Shown here piece by piece: positions 57,174 to 64,000 of a stretch of 64,000 nt of DNA (position 1 is the first letter of the stretch; each line of letters starts with the position of its first letter). Under the pieces are notes generated by a model, which worked only from the letters and a program-made list of their open reading frames with translations, made no database searches and was not told the DNA's origin. The stretch lies in the NCBI GenBank assembly GCA_040755755.1, contig JBFLZW010000016.1, positions 4,663 to 68,662 on the forward strand, given 5' to 3'. Made by a program: the position numbers and the translations under genes. Source of the stretch: a bacterium. Its GTDB lineage: Bacteria; SZUA-182; DTGQ01.

Positions 57174-58019
57174 TCATTTCCTCGACATCAGGTTCACGAT
57201 TGCTCTTCTTGCCTCCCCAATAGTCAAAGGGATTTTCTCGAGCCCAAGGTGATCCTCTTTCTTTAATATTTCCAGCAAATGAGCTACCCTGGGCAGGCGC
57301 AGTTTTGCATCTCTGATCATAGGCGTATCATGGAAAATATCTTCCGGCGTCCCCACCCGCACGATGCGCCCCCGACGGAGGATAGCCAGGCGGTTGATAA
57401 ACAAAGGGACCAGATCCACCATGTGAGTGGCCATAATCATGGTGATCCCTTCTTCCTGATTCAGTTTTTTAAGCAGCTTCATAATAGCGCTGACGCCCAT
57501 GGGATCGAGGCCGGAGGTAGGCTCATCGAGAATTATGACTTGCGGCTGCATGGCCAGAACACCAGCCAGGCAGATGCGTTTTTTCTGGCCATAGCTCAGG
57601 GCATGTATTGACTTGTGGGCCAATGGTGCCATATCGACCAGCTCAAGGGCTTTTTTCACCCGCTGACGGACCTCAGCTTCAGACAGGCCCTGATTACAGG
57701 GGCCAAATGAAATGTCCTGCTCTACCGTCGGGGCAAAAAGCTGATCGTTGGGGTCTTGAAAAACCGTACATATCCGGGAAAAAAGGAGATTCCGATCGAT
57801 AGAAGACAATGCCTCTCCCTCGAATACCACCGTGCCGGTCGAAGGTTTCAGGAGGCCATCGAGAATCTTCAAAAGGGTGGTTTTTCCTGAGCCGTTTGCC
57901 CCAAGGACGGAAAAAAACTCACCTCTCTGGATGGTCAACGAGACCTCTTCCAGGGCGCGGGTGTGGTCAGCGTAACTATAGGTGATGTTTTCCGCAGTTA
58001 AAAATGGCTGGTCCTGCAT
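57174..58019 (-). CDS. cbiO: Cobalt ECF transporter ATPase CbiO
   Basis: The product has 281 residues. It is the ATP-hydrolysing part of the cobalt importer CbiMNQO. Walker A is GANGSGKTTLLK, the signature is LSYGQKKRICLAG (SYGQK replacing SGGQK), and Walker B is VIILDEPTSGLDP. The usual ABC Q-loop FQDPNDQLFAPT is present. It lies between cbiQ (upstream in transcription) and cbiD. Confidence 0.95.
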   Translation of the reverse strand: MQDQPFLTAENITYSYADHTRALEEVSLTIQRGEFFSVLGANGSGKTTLLKILDGLLKPSTGTVVFEGEALSSIDRNLLFSRICTVFQDPNDQLFAPTVEQDISFGPCNQGLSEAEVRQRVKKALELVDMAPLAHKSIHALSYGQKKRICLAGVLAMQPQVIILDEPTSGLDPMGVSAIMKLLKKLNQEEGITMIMATHMVDLVPLFINRLAILRRGRIVRVGTPEDIFHDTPMIRDAKLRLPRVAHLLEILKKEDHLGLEKIPLTIGEARRAIVNLMSRK

Positions 58020-58035
58020 ACTTGTTGCCTTACCT

Positions 58036-58803
58036 TCAGATGATAAACCCTGCTAAATTCAAAGACAGGAGCATGAACAAAAACAGATAATCCCTGCCGG
58101 TCAGAGGATTTACCATAACCGCAATCTTCTGGCCGCTGTATCCGCGAGTCTGCATCGACTGATACACATTCTCCGCCCGGTCAAAAGCCCTTAAAAAGAT
58201 CATCCCCCCAAGAGTTTGAAGGGAGCTCAGGCTCCGCCGCCAGCCGCTATAGCCCAGGCGGACCCTTTGGGCCTCATAGATCCGGTTGGCTTCTTCGGCC
58301 AGGAGGAAGAGATAGCGGAAGACGAACAGGAAAATATCGATAAAAAGAGCAGGCACCCGAAACCAGGCCAGTGAAGATATCATCTGGTGCATCGGAGTGG
58401 TCAGGACAAGGATCAGAATCAACAGTGCTCCGCTGAGGATCAGGGAAGCCCTCAGTGCCCCCTGAATGAGCCCTTCCCGGGAGATGGTCAGCACAGGTCC
58501 ATAAGGGAAGGAGAGGGAGTACATGGCGGTTCCTCGTACCACAACTCCCTGGATGAGGGCTACCATGGCTGCTATTCCTGCCGGAGGAATCATCCGGACT
58601 GCCAGATTCCTGCAAGACCCCCTGGCTGAGAGGAAGAAAACGATGGCCAGCAGGGAAAAGAATCCACAGGTCAGGAAGGAATTCCGGTAGAGGTTAATCA
58701 TAAGGGCTAAAAGGGCAAAGATAATCTTGAGGCGCGCATCAAGTTGCCCAAACCAGGTGTCTGCTCCGAAGCAGCCCCTATCTGCCAGGTGATGGATCAG
58801 CAT
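58036..58803 (-). CDS. cbiQ: Cobalt ECF transporter membrane protein CbiQ
   Basis: The product has 255 residues from the ATG at 58803, with AAAAGG nine bases upstream; an upstream extension has no family support and overlaps cbiN. It begins GCFGADTWFGQLDARLKI, typical for CbiQ. Five or six membrane segments are expected. The cytosolic coupling helices include the Ala-Arg-Gly type motifs seen here as EAQRVRLGY and QSMQTRGY. It overlaps cbiN by 26 bases. Confidence 0.94.
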   Translation of the reverse strand: MLIHHLADRGCFGADTWFGQLDARLKIIFALLALMINLYRNSFLTCGFFSLLAIVFFLSARGSCRNLAVRMIPPAGIAAMVALIQGVVVRGTAMYSLSFPYGPVLTISREGLIQGALRASLILSGALLILILVLTTPMHQMISSLAWFRVPALFIDIFLFVFRYLFLLAEEANRIYEAQRVRLGYSGWRRSLSSLQTLGGMIFLRAFDRAENVYQSMQTRGYSGQKIAVMVNPLTGRDYLFLFMLLSLNLAGFII

Positions 58804-59092
58804 TTGGGACAGCCTTTTCCGACTCGTGGAAAAATTTATGGAATGAATAGCCCATGACAAATCCGCCAATGGTGCCCGCCAGGCAAAAGACAAACAGCAG
58901 CAGGTCTCCCTGGTCAGTATTAATGAAAGGCTCACGGGCTGAGCGGCCATACTTTTCAGCATACTTTTCGACTACCGTCTCATCGACACCAGACCATTCA
59001 GCACAAGAGGCAATCATCGACCGGGAAGTGATAAAAATACAAGAGAATAACATTATTGCCAGAAACAGGAATAGTGCCTTTTCCTTTCTCAT
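58778..59092 (-). CDS. cbiN: Cobalt ECF transporter accessory protein CbiN-like
   Basis: The product has 104 residues with a hydrophobic segment at about 5-25 and another at about 63-85, enclosing a hydrophilic loop. The two-helix topology, size and position between cbiM and cbiQ match CbiN, which together with CbiM is needed for cobalt loading. The C-terminal tail is polar. The primary sequence of this subunit is poorly conserved, so the call rests mainly on context and topology. Confidence 0.8.
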   Translation of the reverse strand: MRKEKALFLFLAIMLFSCIFITSRSMIASCAEWSGVDETVVEKYAEKYGRSAREPFINTDQGDLLLFVFCLAGTIGGFVMGYSFHKFFHESEKAVPNADPSPGR

Positions 59093-59127
59093 AACCTCAT
59101 TCCTCCATTATAGATCATATCTCTCAC

Positions 59128-59874
59128 CTAAACCACCTGCAATTTCTGCAGAACTACGGGCCGGTGTTTATAAATATAAACCACGGCACCCGCAGTGAGT
59201 ACCCCTTCCAGAATACATAAGGGTATCTGGGTCGGCAAGAATGAAACAAAGATCGTGGTAATGACTTTGGCCGCAGCCTCGTCACCGTGCAGGGCAAGGC
59301 CGAGTTCAACCGAAGTGGCCAGGTAGGTAAAAATATCTGCGGCTACACCGGCTATAAAAGCGCGCCAGAATAAAGGAATTTTCCATGACTTGCCCAGTCG
59401 AAAAGCGAGAAAGCCTGCCAAGGATCCGATAATGCCCATGGAGAACACATTGGCTCCGAAGGTGGTTAATCCTCCGTGGGCCAGGAAAAGCGCCTGGATG
59501 AGAAGCGCTACAGCCGCCACCGTGATGCTGGGGAAAAATCCCAGGAGAATTACCGAAAGTCCGGTGCCTGCCGGGTGACTGCACGTCCCGGCAATGGGAA
59601 CGGGAACAGGGAGGCAGGAAAACACGAACACGGCCGCTCCAACCATCCCCAGCAGCGGAAGATAGCTTGGCAGCTCCTCGTTTTTCTTTTTGATATCAAC
59701 CAGCCCCTTGATAAGAAAGGGGGCAGCCAAGACGGTCCAGAAGATAGCCCAGGGGAAGGGAAGAATCCCTTCTGAAATGTGCATGGCCCAGGCAGAGGTT
59801 GCCTGGAGTAATATTACCAAAACTGGTATGGAAGTAAAGGTAGCAATAAGGGTATAGTGTTTTTTCTTCATCAT
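59128..59874 (-). CDS. cbiM: Cobalt ECF transporter substrate-binding membrane protein CbiM
   Basis: The product has 248 residues from the ATG at 59874, preferred because GAGG lies six bases upstream; an ATG four codons earlier is also in frame. A signal peptide precedes MHISEGILPFPW. After processing, the N-terminal Met and His2 of this motif coordinate the metal in CbiM. Further family features are CSHPAGTGLSVILLGFFPS and FLAHGGLTTFGANVFSMG, the metal-site loops, and six to seven membrane segments. It heads the transporter part of the operon. Confidence 0.95.
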   Translation of the reverse strand: MMKKKHYTLIATFTSIPVLVILLQATSAWAMHISEGILPFPWAIFWTVLAAPFLIKGLVDIKKKNEELPSYLPLLGMVGAAVFVFSCLPVPVPIAGTCSHPAGTGLSVILLGFFPSITVAAVALLIQALFLAHGGLTTFGANVFSMGIIGSLAGFLAFRLGKSWKIPLFWRAFIAGVAADIFTYLATSVELGLALHGDEAAAKVITTIFVSFLPTQIPLCILEGVLTAGAVVYIYKHRPVVLQKLQVV

Positions 59875-59890
59875 CTTTATCCTCATCAGG

Positions 59891-60895
59891 TTATGGTAAT
59901 TCTCTTAACAGTGCATTGATTACTGCTGCTGCCATGGGACTGCCTCCTTTTGGTCCCAGGCAGGTGAAATAGGGGATATCCGTCTGACAGAGCTCTTCCT
60001 TGGCCTCGGATGCTCCCACAAATCCAACCGGACAGCCAATCACACCTGCCGGTGCAATCCTGTGCTGGCGGTAGAGATGAATTAATTCCCGAAGCGCGGT
60101 TGGCGCGTTGCCCACCAGAAAAACACCTTCCGGGTAGAGGGATGCTCCTTTTCGCAGGGCAGCCATGGAACGGGTGATTTTCTCCCGTTCAGCCGTCTCT
60201 CTTACTTCCTTATCACGGATAAAACAAAAGACCGGATTATGGAACCTGGCCAAAAGGGCCGGGTTCAGGCCCTCCCTGACCATGAACACGTCAGTGATAA
60301 TGGGCACCCCTTTGGGCAGGGCTGCTGAAAGCTGCTGGTAAAAGTGAGGAGAAAAACGAACAGATGAAGCAATGGCGACATCCCCGGTGGCGTGAATAAC
60401 CCGTTTGATTATGGGCCGCACAGGCTCCGGGAAAGCATCTTCCTGAATCCGGGCTGATATGATTTCAAAGCTCTTCCTCTCGATCAGGGCAGGATCCGAG
60501 AGGTCCGGGTCTGAGGTGTCTGGCTCAGGGTCTCCATTTTCCGCAAGTCTCTCTAGGACAATGTCCACCAGCTTGTCATGCACACCTAAAGGAGGCGTAA
60601 GCCTGATGCGCACAGAAGGATGATCCTGCCGGATGCTTTCGATCATGGCCGGGATATCCTGAAGGACATGGGCACCGGTGTAAAGAAAATAAGGATGGAC
60701 GAGGATTTCCTCAACCCCTTGGGCCAGGCAATATTCAATTCCCTCCAATAAACCGGGTGAGGCGAATTGGAGAAAGACCGGTTTCACTATGGCCAGGCCG
60801 CTTTTGCTTTTGACCATCTCGGCTATGGAGTAAAGCGATTCATTGGCCTTCTGAATACGGGAACCATGTCCCAGCAAGAGCGCTGCTTTTTTCAT
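59891..60895 (-). CDS. Fused sirohydrochlorin cobaltochelatase and precorrin-8X methylmutase (CbiX-CbiC)
   Basis: The product has 334 residues that join the first and a late step of corrin synthesis. Residues 1-120 are the short form of CbiX, which inserts cobalt into sirohydrochlorin; the metal-binding histidines are H10 in GHGSR and H76 in YTGAH. Residues 135-334 are CbiC, which moves a methyl group from C11 to C12; its catalytic histidine is H168 in VIHATGD, and VGNAPTALRELI and GCPVGFVGASEAKE are present. A short Asp/Pro linker (120-135) lies between. It is 35 bases after cbiB. Confidence 0.93.
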   Translation of the reverse strand: MKKAALLLGHGSRIQKANESLYSIAEMVKSKSGLAIVKPVFLQFASPGLLEGIEYCLAQGVEEILVHPYFLYTGAHVLQDIPAMIESIRQDHPSVRIRLTPPLGVHDKLVDIVLERLAENGDPEPDTSDPDLSDPALIERKSFEIISARIQEDAFPEPVRPIIKRVIHATGDVAIASSVRFSPHFYQQLSAALPKGVPIITDVFMVREGLNPALLARFHNPVFCFIRDKEVRETAEREKITRSMAALRKGASLYPEGVFLVGNAPTALRELIHLYRQHRIAPAGVIGCPVGFVGASEAKEELCQTDIPYFTCLGPKGGSPMAAAVINALLRELP

Positions 60896-60930: not shown

Positions 60931-61890
60931 CTAGAAAAGCGCCATTCGTAACCCGATGAAGAAGAGAGTTGCCAGGGCTGTTGTCAACAGAACCAGGGCA
61001 TTGGCTTTGAGAATGTGATTCAACTCCAGCCTCATGGTCTGGTCTCCTAAAACCGGCCTGAACGAAGGGCAGCCGGAGTAATAGTTCAATCCGCCTAATT
61101 GTACTCCGAGGGCCCCGGCAAATGCAGCTTCGGCCAAACCTGAATTGGGGCTGGGGTGCTTCTTCCTGTCACGCCGGAGTATCCGAAGGGAATTGAAGGG
61201 TTTCAGCTTCAGCAAAAAAGCAGCCATTGGCACTAAAGGCGCAGTCAGCCTGGCCGGAAGATAATTGGCTGCGTCATCAATCCTGGCCGAAGCCCAGCCG
61301 AACTCCCTGTATTGCTCATTCTTATAACCAAAGGTTGAATCAAGGGTATTAATAGCCTTGTAAATCATGGCTCCTGCCGGCCCGGCCAGGAAGGTAAAGA
61401 ACAGCGGTGCAGTGATACCGTCAACCATATTCTCGGCAACACTTTCTACCGCAGCCCGCACTACACCCTCCTCATCCAGTCGGTCCGTATCGCGGCCAAC
61501 CATCAGAGAAACTCTCTGTCTGGCTCTTGTAAGATCACCGGCCTTCAGACAGCGGTAGACCTGGTAGCTGTGATGGATGAGATCCCGTGCCGCCAGAGAA
61601 GTATAGATAACCAGAATTGAAACAACGTCCCCGGCCAGAGGATGAATCCATCGTGCTCCCCACTGTGCCGTTTTGATCAGCAGGGAGGTCCCCAGCCCGC
61701 TCAGGAAGATAATGACCAGAGCCAGTGCTATCCCCGCTGTCCGGGGTTTTGAGAAGGAACGCCGGAAAAGAGGCTCCAATCCGGCTGCCGATCTTCCGAT
61801 CAGTTTAACCGGATGAGGAAACCAGGGAGGATCTCCAACCAAAAGATCAAGTCCCAGGGCCAGGAAAATCTGATACTCCAATCTCATCAT
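60931..61890 (-). CDS. cbiB: Adenosylcobinamide-phosphate synthase
   Basis: The product has 319 residues, an inner-membrane protein with about five segments. CbiB attaches aminopropanol phosphate to adenosylcobyric acid. Conserved features are LDLLVGDPPWFPHPVKLIGR at the start, DGITAPLFFTFLAGPAGAM in the middle, YKAINTLDSTFGYKNEQY and the terminal LGGLNYYSG. Two bases separate it from the threonine-phosphate decarboxylase that supplies its amine. Confidence 0.95.
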   Translation of the reverse strand: MMRLEYQIFLALGLDLLVGDPPWFPHPVKLIGRSAAGLEPLFRRSFSKPRTAGIALALVIIFLSGLGTSLLIKTAQWGARWIHPLAGDVVSILVIYTSLAARDLIHHSYQVYRCLKAGDLTRARQRVSLMVGRDTDRLDEEGVVRAAVESVAENMVDGITAPLFFTFLAGPAGAMIYKAINTLDSTFGYKNEQYREFGWASARIDDAANYLPARLTAPLVPMAAFLLKLKPFNSLRILRRDRKKHPSPNSGLAEAAFAGALGVQLGGLNYYSGCPSFRPVLGDQTMRLELNHILKANALVLLTTALATLFFIGLRMALF

Positions 61891-63053: not shown

Positions 63054-63426
63054 CTACTCACGAGCCTGGGACCCCCCGGCTTCCTCAAAAGTGGCCATAC
63101 CGGTCAGAATACCTGCGGCAGCTTCGACCAGATTCATAGCCAGAGCTGCCCCCCCTGCCTTCGCCCAGCCGAAGATCAAGATCCAGCAGGGGCCTTTTCC
63201 CCAGGGTTTCCAGGGCTTTTTTATGGCCCTGTTCCATGCACTGATGAGCAGCGATCATAATAGCCGGCAGCATGATTGGAGGATGGCTGGAGCGATTATG
63301 CCAGCCAGTCCATGAGGCGGCCAAGAGCCCGCAAGGGCATGGTGAGCCGGGAAAGACGCTCCCGTGCCCTGGCACGGGCAACCGCATCTTGAGGTGCTCT
63401 TTCAGGGTCGCTTCTAATAGACTCAT
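63054..63426 (-). pseudogene. cobT: Degraded cobT (nicotinate-nucleotide:dimethylbenzimidazole phosphoribosyltransferase)
   Basis: Pieces of a CobT protein can be read in three frames. The start is intact: AGGAG seven bases before an ATG at 63426 and [10 protein letters not shown]. The reading then jumps by one base, and the other frame gives [15 protein letters not shown] and LGRLMDWLA, the CobT N-terminal pattern, ending in a stop. Directly after that, the original frame carries [21 protein letters not shown] and [12 protein letters not shown], the CobT C-terminal pattern, so the middle 200 or so codons are gone. A run of seven G (63149-63155 on the plus strand) then breaks the frame again before [21 protein letters not shown] and a TAG at 63054. 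It cannot encode a working enzyme. Confidence 0.85.
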
Positions 63427-63497
63427 GTTCGAACTCCTGCTCAATGTATGATCTGTAACTTTTGACTATGACCTACTGGTGACTATAACCTGCCGGC

Positions 63498-63539
63498 AAA
63501 AAAAAATCCCCGGGCCTATCTGAGAACAAGCCCGGGGAT
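63498..63539 (-). terminator. Attenuator-type terminator downstream of the cobalamin riboswitch
   Basis: On the minus strand a GC-rich stem of nine or ten pairs (63539-63530 with 63515-63506) around a 14-base loop is followed by eight or nine T residues. It lies between the riboswitch and cobT and is the likely expression platform: stop when cobalamin is bound. Confidence 0.9.
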
Positions 63540-63609
63540 GCCGTTTTCCATCCTCGCTCTCCAGCATAACCACACCCTAATCCACGAGGGGTAATCATAT
63601 ATCTTCCCC

Positions 63610-63775
63610 ATTCACAGGCAGGTCTTCTGGCTTCCGGATCATCTTACTCACTGCGCCTTCCCACCCATCGAAGGCAGTGGCTTTGTGCAGATTTCATCCC
63701 CGGTTACAGCGGCGGGTCCGCAATGGTTTTCCACCATTTTCCCTTGAAAGCCTTTCTCTGGCTTTTCCTGTGAAT
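63610..63775 (-). promoter_or_regulatory. Cobalamin riboswitch
   Basis: On the minus strand the conserved B12 box AGCCAGAAGACCTGCC is exact at 63632-63617. The other core parts are present: GGGAA followed by GGTGGAAAACCATTGCGGACCCGCCGCTGTAACC-type sequence (positions 63742-63703), and the end stem P1 formed by nine pairs between 63767-63775 and 63610-63618. It starts seven bases after the predicted transcription start. It should repress the whole cobalamin operon when adenosylcobalamin is plentiful. Confidence 0.95.
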
Positions 63776-63788
63776 CATATTTTGATAA

Positions 63789-63817
63789 ATTATAAGATAT
63801 ATACCATTCATTGTCAA
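63789..63817 (-). promoter_or_regulatory. Consensus sigma-70 promoter of the cobalamin operon
   Basis: On the minus strand TTGACA (63817-63812) is exactly 17 bases from TATAAT (63794-63789), a perfect match to the vegetative consensus. Strong constitutive initiation fits control by a riboswitch downstream. Confidence 0.9.
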
Positions 63818-63908: not shown

Positions 63909-63931
63909 CGCAGAGACGCTGAGACGCAGAG
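63909..63931. repeat. Short dispersed-type repeat (CGCAGAGACG unit)
   Basis: The stretch carries the unit CGCAGAGACGCTGAGACGCAGAG as an imperfect internal repeat. Such wording recurs as a dispersed intergenic repeat in several bacterial groups. Only one copy is in this window. Just after it, at about 63941-63988, AAAAGTAAAA and TTTTTACTTTT form a loose inverted repeat. Confidence 0.5.
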
Positions 63932-64000
63932 GATATCATTGAAAAGTAAAAGTAAAACAAGTTCCTCCTTGTGCCTTTTTACTTTTTGCTTGCTTCCAGG

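Follow-up and report, generated by a model that had tools for sequence, protein, structure and literature searches.

A cobT pseudogene behind a predicted cobalamin riboswitch and a full-length cobT with a near-identical leader on another contig of the same draft genome

The window (the whole stretch of DNA that was analyzed, 64,000 nucleotides) contains a cobalamin operon on the minus strand whose first gene is a relic of cobT. The genome assembly is a draft in 88 contigs, and its contamination is estimated at about 3%. The window reaches the end of its contig (C16) about 570 bases from the relic, and the view of the locus stops at position 64000. The operon was compared with a second cobT locus on another contig of the draft (C36), with the genome of a sister species (G001), and with that of a more distant relative (G002). 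Read from the promoter, the features of the operon were as follows.

63789 to 63817, minus strand: sigma-70-type promoter, TTGACA-17-TATAAT, matching the consensus at 12 of 12 positions; a homologue precedes the C36 cobT
63600 to 63786, minus strand: predicted cobalamin riboswitch aptamer (Rfam RF00174, 111.5 bits, full length, 1 to 189)
63531 to 63599, minus strand: region from the aptamer to the terminator stem, 69 nt identical to the C36 leader
63498 to 63539, minus strand: intrinsic terminator with stem ATCCCCGGGC/GCCCGGGGAT and a T-run (hairpin 63539 to 63506; z, -3.6)
63458 to 63491, minus strand: 17-nt tandem duplication 3' of the terminator, inside a stretch missing from the C36 copy
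63054 to 63426, minus strand: cobT pseudogene, start ATG at 63426 and ancestral stop TAG at 63056 to 63054, delimited by alignment with the C36 copy
63085 to 63426, minus strand: 113-codon ORF that remains open from the former start of cobT, with a scrambled middle, and stops after the G7 run
63149 to 63155, minus strand: G7 run with a 1-bp insertion (+1) that breaks the C-terminal frame, by alignment with C36
61893 to 63011, minus strand: cobD, threonine-phosphate decarboxylase, intact (TIGR01140, 327 bits, above the cut-off)
60931 to 61890, minus strand: cbiB, adenosylcobinamide-phosphate synthase, intact (TIGR00380, 256 bits)
59891 to 60895, minus strand: fused cbiX-like chelatase and cbiC precorrin-8X methylmutase, intact
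57174 to 59886, minus strand: cbiM, cbiN, cbiQ, and cbiO, cobalt transporter genes, intact, in the same gene order as in the sister species

A preliminary description of this DNA had placed a degraded cobT, with a deletion of about 200 codons and two frame breaks, at the head of a B12-riboswitch operon within positions 63054 to 63775. The degraded gene was confirmed on the minus strand at 63054 to 63426, where pieces of Pfam PF02277 (DBI_PRT) lie in two frames; the wider interval includes the relic but also takes in most of the leader. The deletion proved real but larger than had been stated (676 bp, or about 225 codons), and the frame is broken as described, although two breaks were too few, as six indels separate the relic from the C36 copy. 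The same description had judged the promoter, riboswitch, and terminator to be in good order, which was borne out by the 12 of 12 promoter matches, the 111.5-bit aptamer, and the hairpin with its T-run.

The PF02277 matches in the relic are two C-terminal pieces, 266 to 305 (E value, 7.7e-10) and 301 to 328 (E value, 8e-4), one of which lies above the profile cut-off. When translated, the relic yielded an N-terminal CobT stretch, a piece around RSSHPP, and C-terminal stretches in two frames. Nucleotide identity with the C36 cobT was 90.5% across 357 aligned sites (9.5% substitutions). Relative to that paralogue, the relic carries a 4-bp deletion at 63397/63398, a 13-bp deletion between CTGGC repeats at 63308/63309, a 1-bp deletion near 63292, the 676-bp deletion at 63276/63277, and a 1-bp insertion near 63260, besides the insertion in the G7 run (some coordinates from this alignment are possibly one base high). 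With its frame disrupted by deletions of 676, 13, 4, and 1 bp and by two 1-bp insertions, the operon cobT is a pseudogene. The three small deletions sum to 18 bp and the large deletion with the adjoining insertion amounts to 675 bp, so that a frame is held open from 63426 to 63085; only residues 55 to 93 of this 113-codon ORF (39 residues) still match DBI_PRT. Compared with the CobT family (TIGR03160, PF02277), to which the C36 copy fully belongs, the piece in the window is recognizably derived but lacks codons 57 to 282 and has its frame broken on both sides of the gap.

The window aptamer scored above the RF00174 gathering score (31.5) and is a predicted cobalamin riboswitch that would exert ligand-dependent control over the genes downstream, among which cobD now in effect heads the operon. 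A full-length aptamer followed by an intrinsic terminator is found before many B12 operons; the arrangement here differs in that the genome has two near-identical copies, one of which stands before a dead gene yet is placed for the genes behind it. Near the contig end, at 63909 to 63931, is a CGCAGAGACGCTGAGACGCAGAG stretch that occurs once in the window and may be a dispersed repeat at which the assembly broke.

A search of the whole genome with PF02277 revealed a full-length cobT with no internal stop at C36:85188-86198 (443.6 bits). Its product scored 440 bits against TIGR03160 (cut-off, 319) and aligned almost end to end with the PDB relatives 1wx1, 1j33, and 4kqj; from this similarity, the C36 copy is predicted to encode a working CobT enzyme. 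A cobalamin riboswitch of its own precedes the gene at C36:86370-86556 (RF00174, 105.7 bits), and the neighbors of this cobT include another riboswitch, the third in the genome, and a gene for a btuB-like TonB receptor. This third riboswitch (L004:4586-4783), about 72% like the cobT leader, precedes the btuB-like gene (L004:5008-7005), which runs towards cobT. An Rfam match to group II intron D1-D4-6 (L004:3637-3879 on C36; 110.8 bits) lies upstream of the btuB riboswitch at a distance of about 700 bases, and no intron-encoded protein was recognized near it.

The homology between C36 and C16 begins at the promoter and continues ungapped beyond the stop of cobT into the opening codons of cobD. 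Behind the C36 cobT, this homology appears as a degraded cobD footprint (AACTCTCAAGGCTrTGAAkTCATC, 22 of 24 positions identical), and cobD itself is absent from C36. Since the C16 operon, and not C36, is the home of cobD, the C36 unit appears to have been copied from an operon in which cobT stood before cobD. The sister genome is syntenic with the C36 neighborhood (five genes in order, 47 to 82% identity) as far as the stop codon of the gene that immediately precedes cobT, where the two diverge, and neither cobT nor btuB is present at this site in the sister; the empty site indicates that C36 is the derived location. In the more distant G002, the order riboswitch-cobC-cobU-cobT-cobS-cbiB-cobD was found, from which the presence of cobT and cobD in one riboswitch operon can be taken as the older arrangement. 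A scan of contigs with CobT recovered only four distant loci, none of them with cobT adjoining cobD.

Across the 357 sites that could be compared among the relic, the C36 copy, and the sister's cobT, 51 were common to the relic and C36 against the sister. The relic thus groups with C36 and not with the sister's cobT, which places the duplication after the split of the two species; gene conversion within the coding part could blur this timing by inflating the apparent relatedness of the relic and C36.

The sister species has a single cobalamin riboswitch (G001:C87:1441-1637); behind it stand a terminator and then cobD, without a cobT in between, and the cobT of this species lies on C8 among other genes. 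Both species therefore have cobT elsewhere and no working copy at the operon head, as would be expected if cobT had left the operon before they split and if the sister's cobT and the C36 copy were the same relocated gene. Such an early move is unlikely, because the two cobT loci have different neighbors, the sister's locus on C8 has neither a riboswitch nor a cobD footprint, and the closest relative of the relic is the C36 copy. The operon head was probably vacated by cobT in separate events in the two species. The gap between riboswitch and cobD in the sister holds a copy (L014:1755-1935; G001:C87) of an interspersed repeat. This element is about 120 bp long, has imperfect terminal inverted repeats, and gave about 45 matches across the sister genome and none in the genome of the window; a related copy lies about 300 bp downstream of the sister's cobT.

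Changes confined to the relic were more numerous than those confined to C36 (20 versus 8 of 357 sites; p = 0.036). When changes were counted by codon position in a second alignment (positions 1, 2, and 3), they numbered 8, 6, and 7 in the relic, 1, 2, and 7 in C36, and 10, 11, and 34 in the sister. The even spread in the relic differed from that in the intact genes, where 41 of 65 changes were at third positions (Fisher's exact test, p = 0.023, on small numbers). The relic evolves without visible coding constraint, and purifying selection on it has been lost.

This pattern also bears on whether the relic might serve as a translated leader, its 113-codon frame keeping ribosomes behind RNA polymerase and so shielding cobD and the following genes from Rho. 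The start codon survives together with the ribosome-binding sequence, and the frame from 63426 to 63085 is held open by compensating indels in two sets, which would fit such a role; two compensations would nevertheless arise by chance about once in nine cases, the codon positions bear no mark of constraint, and in the sister an interspersed repeat occupies the place, with no cobT-derived frame and with the downstream genes intact. A translated leader is accordingly considered very unlikely.

An artefact of assembly or binning, with the relic created by a mis-join or with C36 derived from a different organism in the sample, is about equally improbable. The fragmented draft, its estimated contamination, and the closeness of the contig end to the relic would allow for it. 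However, no mis-join produces 9.5% substitutions spread evenly over codon positions together with six indels. The composition of C36 also fits the window (tetranucleotide r = 0.80 between C36 and C16, against 0.35 to 0.59 with the sister and 0.45 to 0.54 with G002; GC contents of 52% for C36 and 51% for C16), and the genes flanking the C36 locus are those syntenic with the sister species. The draft state and the contamination of about 3% leave a small possibility that C36 is a contaminant.

The relic is best explained, with a probability of about 0.88, as the dead original first gene of the riboswitch-led cobalamin operon, left behind after duplication to C36. Under this explanation, the promoter, riboswitch, terminator, cobT, and first bases of cobD would have been duplicated to C36, beside the riboswitch-led btuB-like gene, after the split from the sister species. 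The intact, riboswitch-controlled copy there would have freed the operon copy of constraint, and the operon cobT would then have accumulated the large deletion as well as several of the small indels; the duplication presumably preceded the decay. The operon leader would have been kept because it is still useful for the genes behind the relic, namely, cobD, cbiB, cbiXC, and cbiMNQO, which it would still control, and gene conversion would probably have homogenized it with the leader on C36. The C36 copy would supply CobT activity in trans.

In the turnover of bacterial operons, a redundant original decays once a working copy has arisen elsewhere. The present locus resembles such cases in having a decayed original and a working-looking copy at another site, and differs from them in that the regulatory leader moved with the gene and is almost identical at both sites. 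The locus is ordinary operon turnover by duplication, relocation, and decay, with modest interest in the near-identical riboswitch that traveled. It provides a clean example of a gene leaving a riboswitch operon, in which the gene was copied with its switch, the original decayed, and the switch was kept for the remaining genes.

Between the aptamer start and the terminator stem, 3 of 256 sites distinguish this genome's two leaders, with 184 of 187 sites identical in the aptamer; the tract from aptamer to stem differs from that of the sister at 14% of sites. An equally clean stretch of 250 sites was not obtained in any of 20,000 permutations. At the rate of the intact genes, about 9 differences would be expected in the leaders (P = 0.02 for 3 or fewer), and at the observed distance between the relic and C36, 19 would be expected (P = 6e-6). 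Recent gene conversion between the two leaders, rather than constraint, is the likely cause of this similarity, part of which constraint could explain by itself. A more elaborate proposal would have ongoing conversion hold the leaders alike, giving the dead operon head and the relocated gene the same B12 set point, and would also have selection remove cobT from the head of the operon twice in the genus, so that lower-ligand activation is regulated apart from the genes for the corrin ring and cobalt uptake; this combination is doubtful. In the papers covered by a literature search, no description of such twin B12 leaders or of concerted riboswitch evolution was found.

The preliminary description had suggested that the organism might rely on a second cobT, on another enzyme for activating the lower ligand, or on a corrinoid whose lower base is different or missing, and that cobT, arsAB-type genes, cobS, and cobU should be sought elsewhere in the genome. 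The second cobT was borne out by the C36 gene, which exceeds the TIGR03160 cut-off and has its own riboswitch. Both other genes were also located: cobU is intact on C19, and cobS lies on C18 together with a gene for a CobC-like phosphatase. Nucleotide loop assembly therefore looks complete as judged from gene content, with no sign of an incomplete cobamide. As for arsAB, this is a tandem cobT pair, and bluB, the bza genes, and tandem arsAB have been used as markers (PMC6461909); none of these markers was established in the present genome. The arsAB genes of phenolyl cobamides belong to the same cobT family; here, the tandem pair is absent, and the single full-length PF02277 gene in the genome stands alone.

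No BluB was found above the cut-off in the four family genomes, where the best score was 57.5 bits against a cut-off of 150, and the matches were weak and nitroreductase-like. BluB is the aerobic synthase, and its absence leaves CobT still needed. That the lower-ligand chemistry changed (to phenolyl, purinyl, or no loop) and that cobT decayed as unneeded is hardly credible despite this lack of BluB, given the intact CobT, CobU, CobS, and CobC-like phosphatase, the lack of a tandem pair, and the full-length cobT that each of the four family genomes contains. A lost lower-ligand pathway was likewise rejected on account of the intact cobT, cobU, cobS, and cobC-like genes, and B12 assembly is predicted not to have been lost despite the dead operon cobT. 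The case is a caution against reading cofactor chemistry from a single operon, since the locus alone suggests a cobamide defect that the genome contradicts.

A second ThiC paralogue was present at C1:277115 (L085:7113-8378; G000:C1), scoring 455 bits against the BzaB model TIGR04386 (cut-off, 700) and just above the cut-off for ThiC. No recognizable bza neighbors and no cobalamin riboswitch accompanied it, and the paralogue was not found in the sister genome; it could be a candidate benzimidazole synthase.
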